10,905 bases of DNA, from assembly GCA_025356795.1 (NCBI GenBank), contig JANXRR010000428.1, positions 1 through 10,905 on the forward strand. Reading direction: 5' to 3'. Below are positions 5,971 through 10,905 of this stretch, piece by piece. A program made the position numbers and the translations under genes. The notes under the pieces were generated by a model. The model did no database searches. It saw nothing but the letters and a program-made list of their open reading frames with translations, and was not told the origin of the DNA. This stretch comes from Bacteroidia bacterium (GTDB taxonomy: Bacteria > Bacteroidota > Bacteroidia > Cytophagales > Cyclobacteriaceae). How positions within the stretch are numbered: the stretch's first letter is position 1; every line of letters begins with the position of its first letter.

Positions 5971-7770
5971 ATGAGCACAATAACACAAACAAAAGCAATT
6001 AAAGGAGGCGAGTTCCTCATTCGTGAAACATTGGCAAAAGACATCTTCATACCAGAAGAATTTAATGAAGAGCAGCGCATGATTGCGCAAACATGTAAAG
6101 ATTTTTTGAAGCAGGAGGTGTATCCTCGCTTGAATGAAATCGATTCTCAGAAAGATCCAACGCTGATGCCTTCGCTACTTGATAAGGCAGGTGAACTAGG
6201 TTTGTTAGGAACTTCCGTGCCACAAGAGCTTGGTGGGTTCGGGATGGATTTTAACACCACAATGTTGGTTGCCGAAACGTTGGGTGCAGGCTATTCATTT
6301 GCGGTGGGTATTTCAGCGCACACCGGAATAGGTACATTGCCGATTTTGTATTACGGTAATGAAGCACAGAAGCAAAAATATATTCCTAACCTCGCCAGTG
6401 GCAAATGGAAGGCCGCATATTGCTTGACAGAACCAGATTCAGGTAGCGATGCTAACTCCGGAAAAACCAAGGCCGTGCTAAGTGCCGATGGAAAGCACTA
6501 CGTTATCAACGGCCAAAAGATGTGGATCACCAACGGTGGCTTTGCCGATATATATGTGGTGTTCGCAAAAATTGACAATGATAAAAACCTAAGTGCCTTC
6601 ATAGTTGAAAAAGCTTTTGGTGGCATCACCATGAATGAAGAAGAGCATAAGATGGGAATCAAGGGATCGTCTACCCGTCAGATTTTCTTCAACGACTGCA
6701 AAGTGCCTGTTGAGAATTTGTTGAGCGAACGTGAGAATGGTTTCAAAATAGCGGTAAACATTCTTAACATAGGAAGAATAAAATTGGGGATTGCGGCCAT
6801 CGGTGGAAGCAAAGCGACCATTTCACAGGCCGTGAAATACGCCAAAGAACGCAAGCAGTTTGGAACATCCATTGCCAACTTCGGAGCCATCAAACATAAA
6901 ATTTCAGAGATGGCTACAAAAGTTTTCGTTTCTGAATCTGCCTGCTATCGTGCCTCGCAAAACATTGATGATGCTTATGAAGCCCTTTCTGCCGCAGGAA
7001 TGGACAAGGCGCAAGCTCGTTTGAAAGCACTGGAAGAATTTGCCATTGAGTGCGCCATCCTTAAAGTTCACGGAAGTGAGGTGTTGGATTTCACGGTAGA
7101 CGAAGGTGTTCAGATTTACGGTGGCATGGGCTTCTCGGCAGAAGGGCCGATGGACAGAGCGTATCGCGATGCCCGCATCAACCGAATCTTTGAAGGCACA
7201 AACGAGATCAACCGACTTCTTACTATTGACATGCTGATGAAGCGTGCCATGAAAGGCACCATCGATTTGATGACACCGGCCATGGCTGTGCAAAAAGAAC
7301 TGATGGCTATACCTGACTTTGGTAGTGCCGATGACAGTGCTCTATTTGCGAAGGAGAAAAAAGCATTGGCTAACTTAAAAAAAGCTGGCCTTATGATTTC
7401 GGGGGCAGCGGTACAGAAGTTCATGATGAAACTTTCTGAAGAACAAGAAGTGCTTATGAACCTGGCCGACATGCTGATTGAAAGTTACGCAGCCGAATCT
7501 GTGTTGTTGAGAGTGGAAAAGCTAATTGGTATACGTGGCGAGGCAGCTTGCGCAGTTGAAAAAGATATGGCAATTGTGTATTTGCATTATGCTATTGAAA
7601 AGGCGGCAGGTGCAGGCAAGCAAGCTATTTACGCTTTCGCGGAAGGAGACGAACTTCGCTTTATGCAACTGGGCTTGAAGCGCTTCACCAAGATTGACCC
7701 ATTCAATTTGAAAGAAGCAAGAAGAAGAATTGCCAACCACATTATTGCTAAGGGAGAGTACCCATTTTAG
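5971..7770 (+). CDS. fadE: Acyl-CoA dehydrogenase (FadE/YusJ-like, long form)
   Basis: This FAD enzyme introduces the trans-2 double bond into acyl-CoA, the first step of beta-oxidation. The protein is 599 residues, close to Bacillus FadE (about 590), and longer than the 380-residue short- and medium-chain enzymes. Landmarks are the N-terminal helical domain (about 30-145), the flavin-binding YCLTEPDSGSDANSGKT (150-166) and WITNGGFADIYVVFAK in the beta domain, and the C-terminal core IYGGMGFSAEGPMDRAYRDARINRIFEGTNEI. E408 of FEGTNEI is at the catalytic-base position of the short-chain and VLCAD-type enzymes. An extra helical region (about 430-599) resembles the C-terminal extension of VLCAD-like proteins. 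It is the last gene of the operon; a REP-like palindrome starts four bases after its stop, followed by a terminator. Chain-length preference cannot be read from the sequence. Confidence 0.94.
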   Translation: MSTITQTKAIKGGEFLIRETLAKDIFIPEEFNEEQRMIAQTCKDFLKQEVYPRLNEIDSQKDPTLMPSLLDKAGELGLLGTSVPQELGGFGMDFNTTMLVAETLGAGYSFAVGISAHTGIGTLPILYYGNEAQKQKYIPNLASGKWKAAYCLTEPDSGSDANSGKTKAVLSADGKHYVINGQKMWITNGGFADIYVVFAKIDNDKNLSAFIVEKAFGGITMNEEEHKMGIKGSSTRQIFFNDCKVPVENLLSERENGFKIAVNILNIGRIKLGIAAIGGSKATISQAVKYAKERKQFGTSIANFGAIKHKISEMATKVFVSESACYRASQNIDDAYEALSAAGMDKAQARLKALEEFAIECAILKVHGSEVLDFTVDEGVQIYGGMGFSAEGPMDRAYRDARINRIFEGTNEINRLLTIDMLMKRAMKGTIDLMTPAMAVQKELMAIPDFGSADDSALFAKEKKALANLKKAGLMISGAAVQKFMMKLSEEQEVLMNLADMLIESYAAESVLLRVEKLIGIRGEAACAVEKDMAIVYLHYAIEKAAGAGKQAIYAFAEGDELRFMQLGLKRFTKIDPFNLKEARRRIANHIIAKGEYPF

Positions 7771-7774
7771 ATGG

Positions 7775-7808
7775 AGGCGTCAAGACACTTTGAAAGTGTC
7801 AGACGCCT
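7775..7808 (+). repeat. REP-like palindrome 1 (plus orientation)
   Basis: Layout: AGGCGTC, AA, GACACTT, loop TGA, AAGTGTC, A, GACGCCT (34 bases). The outer and inner stems are 7 bp each, with an AA/A asymmetric bulge that gives direction. A GGAG tetranucleotide (7773-7776) overlaps the left end. Compared with the other copies, the inner stem carries a C-to-T change matched by G-to-A on the opposite arm. Confidence 0.9.
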
Positions 7809-7828
7809 TTCTCATTAGTGAGACTAAG

Positions 7829-7860
7829 AAAGCCCGGAAGTATTTCTGGGCTTTTTCGTT
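7829..7860 (+). terminator. Intrinsic terminator of the fad operon
   Basis: AAAGCCC (7829-7835) pairs with GGGCTTT (7848-7854). The stem can continue inward (GGAA against TTTC/T with one wobble), and the hairpin runs into TTTTTCGTTTTT. This is a standard Rho-independent layout about 60 bases after fadE, and no plus-strand gene follows closely. Confidence 0.75.
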
Positions 7861-7868
7861 TTTCCTCG

Positions 7869-7902
7869 AGGCGTCAAGACACCTCAAAGGTGTCAGACGC
7901 CT
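7869..7902 (+). repeat. REP-like palindrome 2 (plus orientation)
   Basis: AGGCGTC, AA, GACACCT, loop CAA, AGGTGTC, A, GACGCCT. It is identical over all 34 bases to the copy at 9257-9290 and in the same orientation. It marks the left edge of the low-GC two-gene segment. Confidence 0.9.
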
Positions 7903-7998
7903 TCTCCTTCGTTAAACGGAAGTCAATGGTTTTTTTTAAGTGTTTTAATCTATAAGCAGCTCAAGTGATTTTAGTAGTGAAAATTATAAAATAGGTTT

Positions 7999-8039
7999 TT
8001 GGAAAAGCCCTTCAAATTTTTGTTATAATTTTAGTTTTG
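7999..8039 (+). promoter_or_regulatory. Candidate promoter for the cyclase-like gene
   Basis: The gene-free stretch 7771-8115 holds two palindromes, the fad terminator and then about 200 AT-rich bases. In the latter, TAGTTTTG (8032-8039) matches TAnnTTTG but has no -33 TTG at proper distance. TTGGAA (7999-8004) with TATAAT (8024-8029) gives a sigma70-like pair with a 19-base spacer. Either is plausible and neither is decisive. Confidence 0.28.
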
Positions 8040-8115
8040 AAAATATTTCGCGTTATTGAAAACTATCGGGAAGCAGTTTGGTATGATAGGTCGATAGGGC
8101 ACCAAACAATTAACA

Positions 8116-8895
8116 ATGTCCTACTCAAAAAGAATTGTTGCCTTTATAGATATCCTAGGATTTAAAAGTATGGTCGGATCAAATGATTTTGACCGTGTTA
8201 ACGCTGTATATGAGGAATTCAATAAATTAGTAAAGAATGCCACCCAGCATAGTGAGTGGTATTTTGAAATTGCCAAGGATATATCAAAAGACCCGCCCGC
8301 TCAATATTCGTTTTCTGAGTCTGAACAAGAACTAATATTTTTTTCGGATTGTGTTGTCTGGTCATATCCAATGAAAAAATTAGTGGATGTTAGTCTGGCT
8401 TATACCCTTTCATTCCTTTGTCAAAGTTTGTCTGTTCTTCAATATTCATTATTCAACAAGAAAATTGTGATTAGAGGAGGTGTTTGTGTTGGTGATTTAT
8501 ATATAGACAATAACAAAGTTTTTGGTCCCGGTCTTGTTGAAGCCTATGAGCTTGAAAAGAAAGCGAAATACCCAAGAATAGCTTTTGATCAAAAGATGAT
8601 TGAAGGCATTTCCAAATCTGAAATGAGTTGGTTAAGCAGATATATATCCTATGATTATTGTGGCTTTTATTATTTAGATATTTTCAAACGGCTAAATTCT
8701 ACAAATAAATCATTAAAAGCGGCCACTGACCCTATTCAAAAGATAGCTCTCGAAAAAGCCATGAAAATGTACCTTAATGTAATTATGCCAGTCATTAGTG
8801 AGGGAATTAAAAATGAAGATAGCAATGTAAAAATCAAGTATGAATGGCTAAGGACTAAATTATTTGAAATAGAAGATTTAGTATATTTAAGTTAA
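8116..8895 (+). CDS. Nucleotide-cyclase-like domain protein, function unknown
   Basis: This soluble 259-residue protein has features of the class III nucleotidyl-cyclase fold. RIVAFIDILGF (6-16) holds D12 where cyclases keep the first metal-binding aspartate. FFSDCVVWSY (75-84) puts D78 at the second metal position in the beta hairpin. IRGGVCVGDLYID (119-131), followed by VFGPGLVEAYELEKKAKYPRI, resembles the G-I-x-x-G ... G-P-x-V-N-x-A-x-R-L-E segment, but the transition-state Asn is replaced (VEAYELE) and the later Arg is not obvious. A C-terminal helical region (about 195-259) has no recognised motif. The reading is by motif resemblance only, and activity and substrate cannot be assigned. 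The gene is AT-richer than the fad operon, lies between two identical palindromes, and is followed 71 bases later by a small membrane protein. Cyclase plus membrane effector is the architecture of some anti-phage systems (Pycsar), an inference here. Confidence 0.6.
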   Translation: MSYSKRIVAFIDILGFKSMVGSNDFDRVNAVYEEFNKLVKNATQHSEWYFEIAKDISKDPPAQYSFSESEQELIFFSDCVVWSYPMKKLVDVSLAYTLSFLCQSLSVLQYSLFNKKIVIRGGVCVGDLYIDNNKVFGPGLVEAYELEKKAKYPRIAFDQKMIEGISKSEMSWLSRYISYDYCGFYYLDIFKRLNSTNKSLKAATDPIQKIALEKAMKMYLNVIMPVISEGIKNEDSNVKIKYEWLRTKLFEIEDLVYLS

Positions 8896-8966
8896 GTGTT
8901 TTTAGTCAAGTGTAGCAGTATAAATGTTTCAGGCAATAACTCTGATACTTTAAGAAAGTAACTATT

Positions 8967-9230
8967 ATGGAAATGACTTGGATAGATTGGATAGCAATTT
9001 TCTTGTTATTATGTGGCGTGACTTTAGGACTTGCCATTTCTGTCGATCGCCTGCTTTATAAATTAGGGCTATGGAAAGCGTGTTATAAAACACTGATATT
9101 TTTTGCCGACATATTGTTCAAAGAAAATGATGATGATCACAATAGTGCTAGATCATTAATTTGGTGTGTAGTTGCATTTCCTCTTACTGCCGGTATTTAT
9201 AAATTTATCATTCATTTATTTAATCGGTAA
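8967..9230 (+). CDS. Small two-helix membrane protein, unknown function
   Basis: The 87-residue product has two clear hydrophobic segments: about 8-28 (WIAIFLLLCGVTLGLAISV) and about 64-84 (LIWCVVAFPLTAGIYKFIIH). They are joined by a semi-hydrophobic helix and a charged stretch KENDDDHNSAR. There is no signal-peptidase site, lipobox or recognisable ligand-binding domain. It has the same strand and low-GC composition as the cyclase-like gene 71 bases upstream and ends shortly before palindrome 3, so the two probably form one cassette. No family is recognised. The ATG at 8967 is the first in frame and gives a sensible N-out or N-in hairpin topology. Confidence 0.6.
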   Translation: MEMTWIDWIAIFLLLCGVTLGLAISVDRLLYKLGLWKACYKTLIFFADILFKENDDDHNSARSLIWCVVAFPLTAGIYKFIIHLFNR

Positions 9231-9256
9231 CAAGACTCTTGAACCTCCTCTCTTGG

Positions 9257-9290
9257 AGGCGTCAAGACACCTCAAAGGTGTCAGACGCCT
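9257..9290 (+). repeat. REP-like palindrome 3 (plus orientation), upstream of RAYT
   Basis: It is identical to palindrome 2 (7869-7902). GGAG at 9255-9258 overlaps its left end, as in palindrome 1. It lies 54 bases before the transposase start and is oriented opposite to palindromes 4 and 5 on the other side of that gene. Confidence 0.9.
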
Positions 9291-9305
9291 AACTTCGCAC
9301 CTAAC

Positions 9306-9340
9306 TTGCCTTACCATTATGGAAACCTTCTTTATCTTTG
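9306..9340 (+). promoter_or_regulatory. Candidate promoter of the RAYT gene
   Basis: TATCTTTG (9333-9340) matches TAnnTTTG exactly, with TTG (9306-9308) 24 bases upstream. The box ends four bases before the ATG, so a transcript from it would be almost leaderless. This is a weak call. Confidence 0.27.
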
Positions 9341-9344
9341 AACT

Positions 9345-9920
9345 ATGCAGTTCACAGAGGGCAGTTTTTATCATATCTATAATCGTGGCAACGATAAGCA
9401 AACCGTCTTTTTTCAAGAACGCAACTATCATTTCTTTTTGCAAAAGGTGGAGAAATATATAGCCCCGAATGCAGACTTGTTGGCATGGTGCCTAATGCCA
9501 AATCATTTTCACTTTCTTGTAAAAGCAAATGCTGCCTCCGCCAAAATTATCAAGGAAAAACCGATACCAATAAACGCGCTGACAGAGGGCATTCGGTTAC
9601 TATTAAGTTCTTATGCGAAGGCCATTCAAAAGCAAGAATCAATTACAGGCAATCTTTTCCAGCAGAAAACTAAGTTCAAATGTGTGGATGTATATCTTTC
9701 TACTGCTTTTCATTATATTCATCAAAATCCATTAAGGTCAAATCTTGTTGATCGGCTTGAAGATTGGCCTTGGTCTTCTTTACCAGAGTATCTTGGAAAA
9801 GGCGCAACTCAACTGTGCAAAAGAGAAACTGCGTATCAGTATATAGATATCAATTGGCAGAGATTATTAGAAGAATCCTATTTGGTAATTCCTCCGAATT
9901 TCCAATCCAAGATTTTATAG
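9345..9920 (+). CDS. REP-associated tyrosine transposase (RAYT, IS200/IS605 TnpA-related)
   Basis: This 191-residue Y1 HUH-type single-strand DNA transposase is of the RAYT class. FYHIYNRGNDKQTVFF (8-23) is the characteristic N-terminal block. LMPNHFHFLV contains the HUH histidines H54 and H56. GNLFQQKTKFK and FHYIHQNPLRSNLVDRLEDWPWSS (122-145) include Y124, the likely catalytic tyrosine in the Y-I-x-x-N-P segment. RAYTs are single-copy host-kept transposases that are thought to move short REP palindromes in trans. It is flanked here by palindromes of opposite orientation (9257-9290 and 9927-9959), as expected for a RAYT locus, and has no typical IS ends or accessory TnpB. The C-terminus (VIPPNFQSKIL) is encoded in a stretch duplicated downstream at 9996-10031. 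All key residues are present, so it may be active. Confidence 0.9.
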   Translation: MQFTEGSFYHIYNRGNDKQTVFFQERNYHFFLQKVEKYIAPNADLLAWCLMPNHFHFLVKANAASAKIIKEKPIPINALTEGIRLLLSSYAKAIQKQESITGNLFQQKTKFKCVDVYLSTAFHYIHQNPLRSNLVDRLEDWPWSSLPEYLGKGATQLCKRETAYQYIDINWQRLLEESYLVIPPNFQSKIL

Positions 9921-9926
9921 CCGATT

Positions 9927-9959
9927 AGGCGTCTGACACCTTTGAGGTGTCTTGACGCT
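9927..9959 (-). repeat. REP-like palindrome 4 (minus orientation)
   Basis: AGGCGTC, T, GACACCT, loop TTG, AGGTGTC, TT, GACGCT. This is the reverse-complement orientation of copies 1-3 and is one base short, because the terminal C pair has lost a C. It starts six bases after the RAYT stop. Confidence 0.88.
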
Positions 9960-10037
9960 TGCCCTAAAAAGACTTTCCCGTTCGCACGCCTCTTCGGTAA
10001 TTCCTCCGAATTTCCAGTCCAGATTTTATAGCCGATT

Positions 10038-10071
10038 AGGCGTCTGACACCTTTGAGGTGTCTTGACACCT
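10038..10071 (-). repeat. REP-like palindrome 5 (minus orientation)
   Basis: It has the same orientation as palindrome 4 and full length (34 bases), but the last arm reads GACACCT instead of GACGCCT, leaving one mismatched outer base pair. It belongs to the duplicated unit. Confidence 0.88.
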
Positions 10072-10126
10072 GCCCGAAACGATCAAAAAACCCAATTTAA
10101 GCCTTTTTCGCTTCGCACCAGTCTTC

Positions 10127-10357
10127 CGTGCAATCGCACGGGCCATCGGTGCGTACGCACGCCTCTTCGGTGCGGTGGAACGGGTCATTAGTGCGGTCGC
10201 ACCACGCTTCGGTGGCATGGCACGCGCCTTAGGTGCGTACGCACCGTTCATCCGTGCAGTCGCACGCGTTATGGGTGCGTAGCCACGCACGCTCGGTGGC
10301 ACCGCACGCGGCATCCGTGCGACCGCACCACCCTTCGGTGCGTACGCACCGCTCATC
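10127..10357. repeat. Array of eleven 21-bp tandem units with palindromic GTGCG..CGCAC cores
   Basis: Eleven consecutive units of exactly 21 bases start at 10127, 10148, 10169, 10190, 10211, 10232, 10253, 10274, 10295, 10316 and 10337; a degenerate unit may precede at 10106. By hand alignment, unit positions 2-4 (GTG), 12-13 (AC) and 20 (T) are invariant, and the rest vary. The units at 10232 and 10337 hold the perfect 14-bp palindrome GGTGCGTACGCACC; that at 10148 holds its inner 12 bp. A 7-base linker ending mostly in TTC or ATC follows each core. The array is strongly GC-rich in an AT-leaning region. Since 21 is a multiple of three, several frames stay open as 7-residue repeats, but no convincing gene is present. 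The gene-free stretch 9921-10371 otherwise holds palindromes 4 and 5 and about 50 featureless bases (10076-10126). Confidence 0.92.
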
Positions 10358-10371
10358 GGGGGCAACTATTT

Positions 10372-10515
10372 ATGGCAATGCCGAGCCTACTATTTCCCAT
10401 TATTACCCCTCCGTTCTATTATGAATTGGTACTTGGTGGCGTTGGAGGCCATCATGGCTTTTGGATGAATTTCTATGCTATCAATGAGGTGTCAGCTAAT
10501 GCGGTTATTGAATAA
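10372..10515 (+). CDS. Orphan 47-codon ORF, possible gene remnant
   Basis: An ATG at 10372 opens a frame ending in TAA at 10513-10515. It encodes a 47-residue product that starts MAMPSLLFPIITPPFYYE and includes LGGVGGHHGFWMNFYAINEV. The composition (aromatic, Gly-rich, little bias) looks more protein-like than the array frames. The frame stays open upstream through part of the 21-bp array to a TAG at 10189-10191, with no usual start codon in that part. The hairpin at 10525-10546 follows the stop by nine bases, as for a real gene end. It could be the C-terminus of a gene whose 5' part was replaced by the array, a small protein or chance. No family is recognised. Confidence 0.33.
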   Translation: MAMPSLLFPIITPPFYYELVLGGVGGHHGFWMNFYAINEVSANAVIE

Positions 10516-10550
10516 CAAAAAGCATCCGAGAGCTTAACATCTCGGACGTC
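10515..10550. terminator. Bidirectional hairpin terminator between convergent reading frames
   Basis: TCCGAGA (10525-10531) and TCTCGGA (10540-10546) form a 7-bp stem with an 8-base loop. On the minus strand the stem runs into TGCTTTTTGTT, a good U-tract for the YHS gene that ends at 10573. On the plus strand only CGTCTTTAATT follows, so termination in that direction would be weaker. Confidence 0.65.
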
Positions 10551-10572
10551 TTTAATTACTAGAATTACTAGT

Positions 10573-10905
10573 CTAGTCTTTTTTTATCTTCGGCCACTGA
10601 TCGTCAGCCTTTTTAATCAACCCGGGTCTGTCCTTGTTCCACAAGTCTTTTACTTTCAGGTTGTAGTTGAAATAAAGCTTGTTGTTATATATCGTCCAAG
10701 TATCGGTTTCAGTTGGAGCCTTGTGGCCATCTGCGGTACCGTAAGCACAGTATCCTCCGTATTGAGGTGCATACTTTTCAGGATCAGCAACAAACAAATC
10801 TTTATTCTTATTAGTCGCAAAGTGCCACATAGCTCCTTGCCACTCGTAAGTAATTTCTTTATCACCTTCAACTGCTTTGTTATCTGTAAAGAAAGCAACA
10901 GGATC
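10573..10905 (-). CDS. YHS-domain-containing protein, 5' end outside window
   Basis: The visible C-terminal 110 residues begin DPVAFFTDNKAVEGD and continue ITYEWQGAMWHFATNKNKDLF, ADPEKYAPQYGGYCAYGTADG and KLYFNYNLKVKDLW. This is the D-P-V-A-Y-F ... W-x-F-x-x-x-x-N-x-x-x-F-x-x-x-P-x-x-Y-x-P-x-Y-G-G-Y-C-A-Y pattern of bacterial YHS-family proteins. They are usually exported proteins of about 150 residues with a signal peptide that would lie past the window edge. YHS modules are linked to metal binding in other contexts, but the role of this stand-alone form is not established. The coding frame is open through the window end and stops with TAG at 10573-10575. The hairpin at 10525-10546 probably terminates it. 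Confidence 0.85.
   Translation of the reverse strand, partial: DPVAFFTDNKAVEGDKEITYEWQGAMWHFATNKNKDLFVADPEKYAPQYGGYCAYGTADGHKAPTETDTWTIYNNKLYFNYNLKVKDLWNKDRPGLIKKADDQWPKIKKD

Follow-up and report, generated by a model that had tools for sequence, protein, structure and literature searches.

The array and its period

What keeps a row of DNA repeats at one exact length while the sequence of its units varies widely? The question is raised by a locus in a window of 10,905 nucleotides (the whole stretch of DNA that was analysed) from a Bacteroidia bacterium of the family Cyclobacteriaceae. A sequence-only reading of this window had described eleven units of strictly 21 bases, with retained GTG and CAC arms and drifting linkers, and had proposed that selection acts on their spacing and hairpin shape and not on a peptide. 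The core array was located at positions 10128..10358 (no strand assigned). It consists of 11 units of exactly 21 bp, each made up of a 12-bp core, GTGnnnnnnCAC, and a 9-bp linker, with one unit ending in AAC. A degenerate leading unit at 10107..10127 (TTCGCTTCGCAC plus a 9-bp linker; no strand assigned) precedes it in register, and from 10359 onward the 21-bp register is lost. At a lag of 21, identity amounts to 0.56, whereas lags of 20 and 22 give 0.24 and 0.25; the value at lag 21 was reached by none of 5000 single-base shuffles of the array. The strict period of the eleven units is thus confirmed.

The core array contains no indels but 59 departures from the unit consensus, and the mean identity of the units is 0.73. 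GTG is present in 11 of 11 units and AC likewise in 11 of 11, while CAC is found in 10, unit 3 having AAC instead. Columns 1-3, 11, 12 and 19 are invariant, the last of these being a linker position that is T in all 11 units. Departures occur at 24 of 132 core positions and at 35 of 99 linker positions (p = 0.004), so the description of kept arms and drifting linkers was accurate. The G+C content is 65% in the array and 41% in the whole window. Similarity does not fall with distance (identity 0.56 at lag 21, 0.63 at lag 84 and 0.65 at lag 189), which suggests that the array is old and not freshly expanded.

Surroundings of the array

The array sits between a gene for a REP-associated tyrosine transposase (9345-9920, plus strand; Y1_Tnp with E = 5e-4 and NCBIfam with E = 1.8e-14, both below the curated cut-off) and a YHS-domain gene (10573-10905, minus strand). 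In the part searched for them (7700-10905), five REP copies were found at 7775-7808, 7869-7902, 9257-9290, 9925-9958 and 10038-10071, and REP hairpins flank the transposase gene on both sides in opposite orientation. In BLAST searches of the same part, the five copies match one another and never the array. It therefore lacks the sequence relation to the REP hairpin that would place it among REP or BIME elements, in agreement with the earlier view that it does not belong to the REP family next to it. The 3' end of the transposase gene and a REP copy form a tandem duplication (9877-9968 and 9989-10079, 92% identity). At the junction of this duplication lies a stray 20-bp piece resembling an array unit (9979..9998, plus strand, 95% identity to query positions 47-66), a match that is weak taken alone (E = 0.107).

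A tie between the array and either of its neighbours was considered and rejected. In the genome G034, a transposase-REP unit 90% identical to that of the window stands at another locus without an array, and in G010 a YHS gene 83% identical to the one in the window has no array alongside. No orthologue of the window array was found beside the homologues of neighbouring genes that were inspected, nor was one found by pattern. Elsewhere in the window, two genes of the four-helix-bundle family TIGR02436 (3920-4273 and 5575-5940) are interleaved with beta-oxidation genes (FadB-like, thiolase and FadE-like).

In CRISPR arrays, near-identical repeats alternate with unique spacers some 30 bp long, and cas genes accompany them. 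The window array resembles them in being composed of regular direct repeats with variable parts. However, its 12-bp core is itself variable, its spacer measures 9 bp, and 12 window ORFs, of which 6 were scanned against Pfam and 8 against NCBIfam, gave no match to replication, partition or cas families. The array thus does not fit CRISPR, in agreement with the sequence-only reading. A BLAST search of positions 9900-10500 against plasmids gave no match.

Arrays of the same period in other genomes

In the array's own genome, a draft of 640 contigs with 77.5% completeness, no second copy was detected by BLAST or by pattern, and 48 kb sampled from it contained no further array. Other genomes were searched for this array by patterns, not by BLAST. 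Among 57 other genomes of the same genus, two had 21-bp arrays that differ in sequence: that of G025 was detected by pattern, and that of G022 turned up by chance in flanking sequence. A looser pattern of four units with 3 mismatches matched 10 of 62 genomes of the genus, and its reversed control produced one match each in G820 and G003. The congeners G820, G011 and G050 carry arrays with a GC....GCAC core together with further 21-bp arrays of other sequence, and G045 has one 21-bp array of other sequence. The matches in G003, G044, G019, G048 and G037 were obtained with 2-3 mismatches only.

A scan of the class (395 genomes, linker lengths of 4-14 allowed) matched G000, G181 and G478. Since its reversed control also matched two genomes (G158 and G362), the identification of an array in G181 rests on TRF. 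In this genome, which belongs to another family of the same class, GTGCnnnnGCAC cores are joined by linkers of exactly 9 bp. Two such arrays are found 84 kb apart, the first with higher-order periods of 42 and 84 bp, and both start with a TTGCTTCGGCAC unit, like the degenerate leading unit of the window array. The G478 match was read by eye from its sequence as coding and was discarded. When 395 genomes of the phylum were scanned with the pattern GTGC....GCAC and 3 mismatches, no further array was found; the matches outside the own genome were in G069 and G709, and the pattern reversed as a control gave matches in 4 genomes as well. Scanning named genomes for the exact core gave two Streptomyces loci, L139 (with a 19-bp period) and L140. 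The GC....GCAC core is common to the three congeners and to G181, a recurrence that is partly built in because the search patterns asked for that core. Array families without this core appear to be limited to single species, as judged from narrow searching.

The first 400 kb of contig C2 of G181, picked because two arrays were known farther along the contig, contain 26 tandem-repeat loci of at least 60 bp: 17 with a period of 21 or 42, 3 with a period of 20 or 43 and 6 with other periods. At least four G181 loci have a true period of 42, not 21. A 400-kb stretch of G820, likewise picked because arrays were already known there, has a period of 21 or 42 in 6 of 11 loci, two of which are parts of one array. 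For 1.18 Mb from the congeners G041, G023 and G022, the corresponding figure for period 21 is 2 of 23 loci, one of them known beforehand. Genomes thus divide into those rich and those poor in 21-bp arrays, and the small number in the three sampled congeners means that any function is dispensable. Random unit lengths elsewhere had been named as an outcome that would remove the argument from spacing; instead, periods of 21 or 42 prevail where arrays are abundant. The proposed search for arrays of this period succeeded in relatives, where the sequence is often another one, but not for a second array in the own genome. Arrays of the same size and different sequence within one genome were seen in G181 and G820, and the own genome shows one array by sequence and pattern search, with no other in the sampled 48 kb.

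Around 20 G181 loci (periods 20, 21, 42 and 43), the neighbouring genes are in tandem in 10 cases, divergent in 6 and convergent in 4; these numbers were counted by hand from the listing of a crude ORF caller, in which the repeat itself may form "coding?" ORFs. Arrays may also lie close together. Two stretches of G011 (L251 1002-1786 and L253 823-1466) hold several different 21-bp arrays, as well as 20- and 43-bp ones, within less than 800 bp. A 21-bp array of G181 whose unit contains a CTGAG-GTAT-CTCAG dyad (L189 930-1118) is found about 8 kb from a GTGC....GCAC array, and the latter lies upstream of what we take, from its sequence, to be a dnaK-like gene.

Indels and substitutions in orthologous arrays

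Two arrays with the architecture of the window array occupy orthologous places in congeners. The pair G820:C30/G011:C65 could be aligned over 275 bp and shows 49 substitutions and no indels. The pair G820:C18/G050:C237, aligned over 291 bp, differs by 45 substitutions and by a single indel, which comprises one whole unit of exactly 21 bp. Together, 94 substitutions are thus accompanied by one indel. As a control we used intergenic sequence from the same contigs plus the flanks of a third pair (C36/C322), in which 35 indels and 305 substitutions were counted at 1662 sites. The third pair entered into the control only, since its alignment ends at the array start, about 230 bp from the contig end. 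For 94 substitutions, 10.8 non-unit indels would be expected and none was observed (Fisher p = 1.8e-4); counting the 21-bp indel gives p = 0.002.

These values depend on several choices. The control gaps are clustered, and merging those within 30, 60 or 100 bp leads to p = 0.017, 0.047 or 0.046. The array limits were set after the alignments had been seen. A wider array mask raises the count to 106 substitutions and, besides the 21-bp indel, takes in a gap of 1 bp located 37 bp beyond the original limit, which makes 2 indels in all; p is then 8e-4 with raw counts and 0.08-0.21 with control gaps merged. The scarcity of indels in the two orthologous arrays is thus suggestive, not settled: the test is small and dependent on such choices. 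For the 59 departures of the window array itself, 6.8 indels would be expected from the control ratio (P(0) = 0.001), or 2.5-3.3 with merged control gaps (P(0) = 0.04-0.08), if departures from the consensus are treated as separate changes. The distribution of substitutions within the orthologous units was also uneven, with 38 at 324 core positions and 56 at 242 linker positions (p = 4e-4). The rate of change in the core is half that of the linker.

At other fixed sites the sequence has turned over. Site C52:51k of G820 (L193 11088-11381) is occupied by 14 units, TTCGTGCACAGTGCAAAGTGG, with a period of 21, while the orthologous site in G011 (C36; L242 1162-1451) carries a 42-bp array of unrelated sequence. 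Here the flanks are alike on both sides (77% and 79%), and no shared word longer than 10 bp was found. The arrays G820:C52:248k and G050:C380 are built from related 42-bp units, and most units of a species share its changes. This pair was excluded from the indel counts, as it is homogenised within species and has one 1-bp gap inside the array, in a badly aligned part. Two further candidates were not accepted as array pairs. For C52:168k/G011:C84, the alignment covered a single flank, beyond which lies a repeat of a different type (7/21 bp); C52:51k/G050:C20 aligned on one side only, and no array was found. Apparently, replacement, seen at one site, and homogenisation both renew the sequence of the arrays but leave the period intact.

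Coding potential and palindromes

A period that is a multiple of three could reflect a heptad-repeat protein, with 21 nt encoding 7 residues, in the window on the minus-strand ORF 10036-10365. This minus frame has an ORF of 109 aa in the window, its counterparts in the two G181 arrays have ORFs of 113 and 93 aa, and A-x-A heptads would result; in G820:C18/G050:C237, one plus frame is open in both species past a stop near the 5' end. However, searches at the thresholds used gave no protein homologue for the window minus ORF or for a plus ORF in a G181 array, G820:C30/G011:C65 has no frame that is open in both species, and some arrays have a period of 20 or 43. In the two orthologous pairs, the substitutions are spread evenly over the three phases (35/30/29), compared with 2034/385/185 at codon positions 3/1/2 in the flanking genes, where 2034 of 2604 changes (78%) affect the third position. 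The synonymous bias in one frame by which the sequence-only reading would have recognised a coding array is thus absent from the arrays of relatives. If this result carries over to the window array, as we presume, the array is not selected as a peptide, and we regard a heptad-repeat protein as very improbable.

The units had also been called palindromic. Indeed, 46 of 55 arm pairs in the window (83.6%) can pair, although in 5 of 11 units the innermost pair cannot form, and the consensus core is almost self-complementary. With 5 of 6 pairs, however, the consensus palindrome is not significant against shuffles of its own letters (p = 0.154). We also assembled 35 arrays, hand-picked from the genus and G181; a palindromic 12-mer is present in the consensus of 2 of them at p < 0.05, neither being the window array, with a combined p of 0.89. 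The arrays G011:C65, G050:C237 and G050:C322, the repeat at L188 7965-8094, the repeat of L133 on a G022 contig and the period-20 and period-43 loci were left out of this list although already known, and L242, L248-L251 and L253 were found after it had been drawn up.

A row of RNA or cruciform hairpins, whose palindromic arms are kept for the sake of structure, would be expected to show compensatory changes. Arm covariation, which had been suggested as a check, does not exceed that of shuffles in the window units (273 of 500 reach the score), and of the 22 outer arm pairs with a change in the two orthologous arrays, none went from paired to paired by changes on both sides. Folded as a single strand, the array scores better than its shuffles (RNA z -4.6 and -3.7, DNA z -4.2), but the predicted folds chiefly pair distant units and do not form a row of hairpins, and Rfam gave no match to the array at the gathering threshold. 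Together with the rarity of palindromic consensus sequences, this makes a row of hairpins improbable. The period is the property common to the arrays, and the palindrome is at most a trait of some families. The initial reading is therefore partly supported: the feature is real and non-random, the stress on spacing was right, and the constraint appears to act there. Hairpin shape did not receive such support.

Possible explanations for the constant length

The explanation that we tentatively prefer, and which may well be correct, is that the array is a noncoding, length-constrained repeat whose 21-bp register is selected, likely for cooperative binding along one face of the helix by a protein of low specificity. 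In such an array, every unit would show its 12-bp core on the same helix face, and a DNA-binding protein, probably an architectural one, would bind cooperatively along this face. A substitution weakening one weak site would be tolerated, as would the gain or loss of whole units, but an insertion or deletion rotating all downstream sites would not. The slower core and the few indels of the two orthologous arrays, and the recurrence of the period with other sequences, are consistent with this model, which supposes that selection, not a repair bias, removes indels and that the findings in relatives hold for the window array too. Its support from the indels is strong with raw counts and weak once clustered control gaps are merged. 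The main rival is a mutational ruler, in which the period is set by the process that makes or homogenises the repeats (whole-unit slippage or recombination), without selection on function. We consider it possible, if somewhat doubtful. Whole-unit change between orthologues, the changes common to most units within a species in G820:C52:248k and G050:C380, and the higher-order periods of 42 and 84 bp, which TRF also gives for the window array, speak in its favour. However, orthologous units are 82-85% alike in the two alignable pairs and neighbouring units only 0.56-0.59, which indicates little homogenisation, and still there are no non-unit indels. The constancy of similarity with distance in the window array also argues against a ruler of this kind, as does the fact that two-copy 21-bp duplications are uncommon: there are none in G181 and G023, one each in G041 and G022, and five in G820, which may overlap known arrays.

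Plasmid iterons are direct repeats that typically span about two helical turns. The window array, likewise made of direct repeats phased at about two turns, might in principle be a plasmid-type iteron or centromere array serving as a replication or partition site. However, it is G+C-rich, its units are more degenerate than those of iterons, and a replication or partition family is absent from the window ORFs scanned. Relatives moreover carry arrays of this period at many sites, with many different ones within one genome (G181). We therefore give an iteron or centromere hardly any credence. A more far-reaching reading than phased protein binding, and an unlikely one, is that the arrays are a length-coded DNA element. 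Their sequence would be exchangeable wholesale while the 21/42-bp register is kept, for which G820:C52:51k/G011:C36 is the one example so far, and a dedicated protein or array-writing process would read or maintain the helical phase only.

Relation to known repeats

The window array appears to belong to a known class, the "constant size, variable sequence" repeats of Subirana and Messeguer. In Bacillus, these authors describe tandem repeats with a constant size of 20-21 or 52 nt and a variable sequence, and repeats with a constant size of 20-23 nt are reported in individual species of many bacterial groups (PMC8161180). The 20-21-nt repeats are generally noncoding and equal two helical turns; they are thought to be constrained in size, for which a polymerising protein or a role as small RNA is considered, and are given no obvious function by their describers (PMC8161180). 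With 11 exact units of 21 bp, the window array has the size and the copy number (at least four) of this class. The invariant GTG, AC and T19 provide a short characteristic sequence, and a noncoding nature is indicated by the flat phase in the two orthologous arrays of relatives and by the missing homologue of the window ORF. Several sequence families per genome, another trait of the class (PMC8161180), were seen in G181 and G820, and the division into species rich and poor in arrays recurs here.

The window array differs from the described repeats in its degenerate units (mean identity 0.73) with a dyad core. The families of Subirana and Messeguer are species-specific, with exceptions among close species (PMC8161180), whereas those with the GC....GCAC core are shared between species. 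The main text of their paper names such repeats for Bacillus, other Firmicutes, Cyanobacteria and Actinobacteria, and the string "Bacteroid" is absent from it (PMC8161180). Word searches of the literature, chiefly outside the subscription journals, gave no report of such arrays in Bacteroidetes or with an argument from helical turns. A size constraint had been proposed for the known repeats (PMC8161180). Comparison of orthologous arrays turns it into a direct test, in which the only indel within the original limits is a whole unit amid plentiful substitutions, albeit in a small sample. As far as we could see, this use of orthologous arrays is new.

The analysis thus sets spacing apart from palindrome shape and singles out G181, G820, G011 and G050 as array-rich genomes in which the nature of the ruler could be settled. 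If the length-coded reading were true, the arrays would represent a bacterial genetic element that is phase-specific and independent of sequence.
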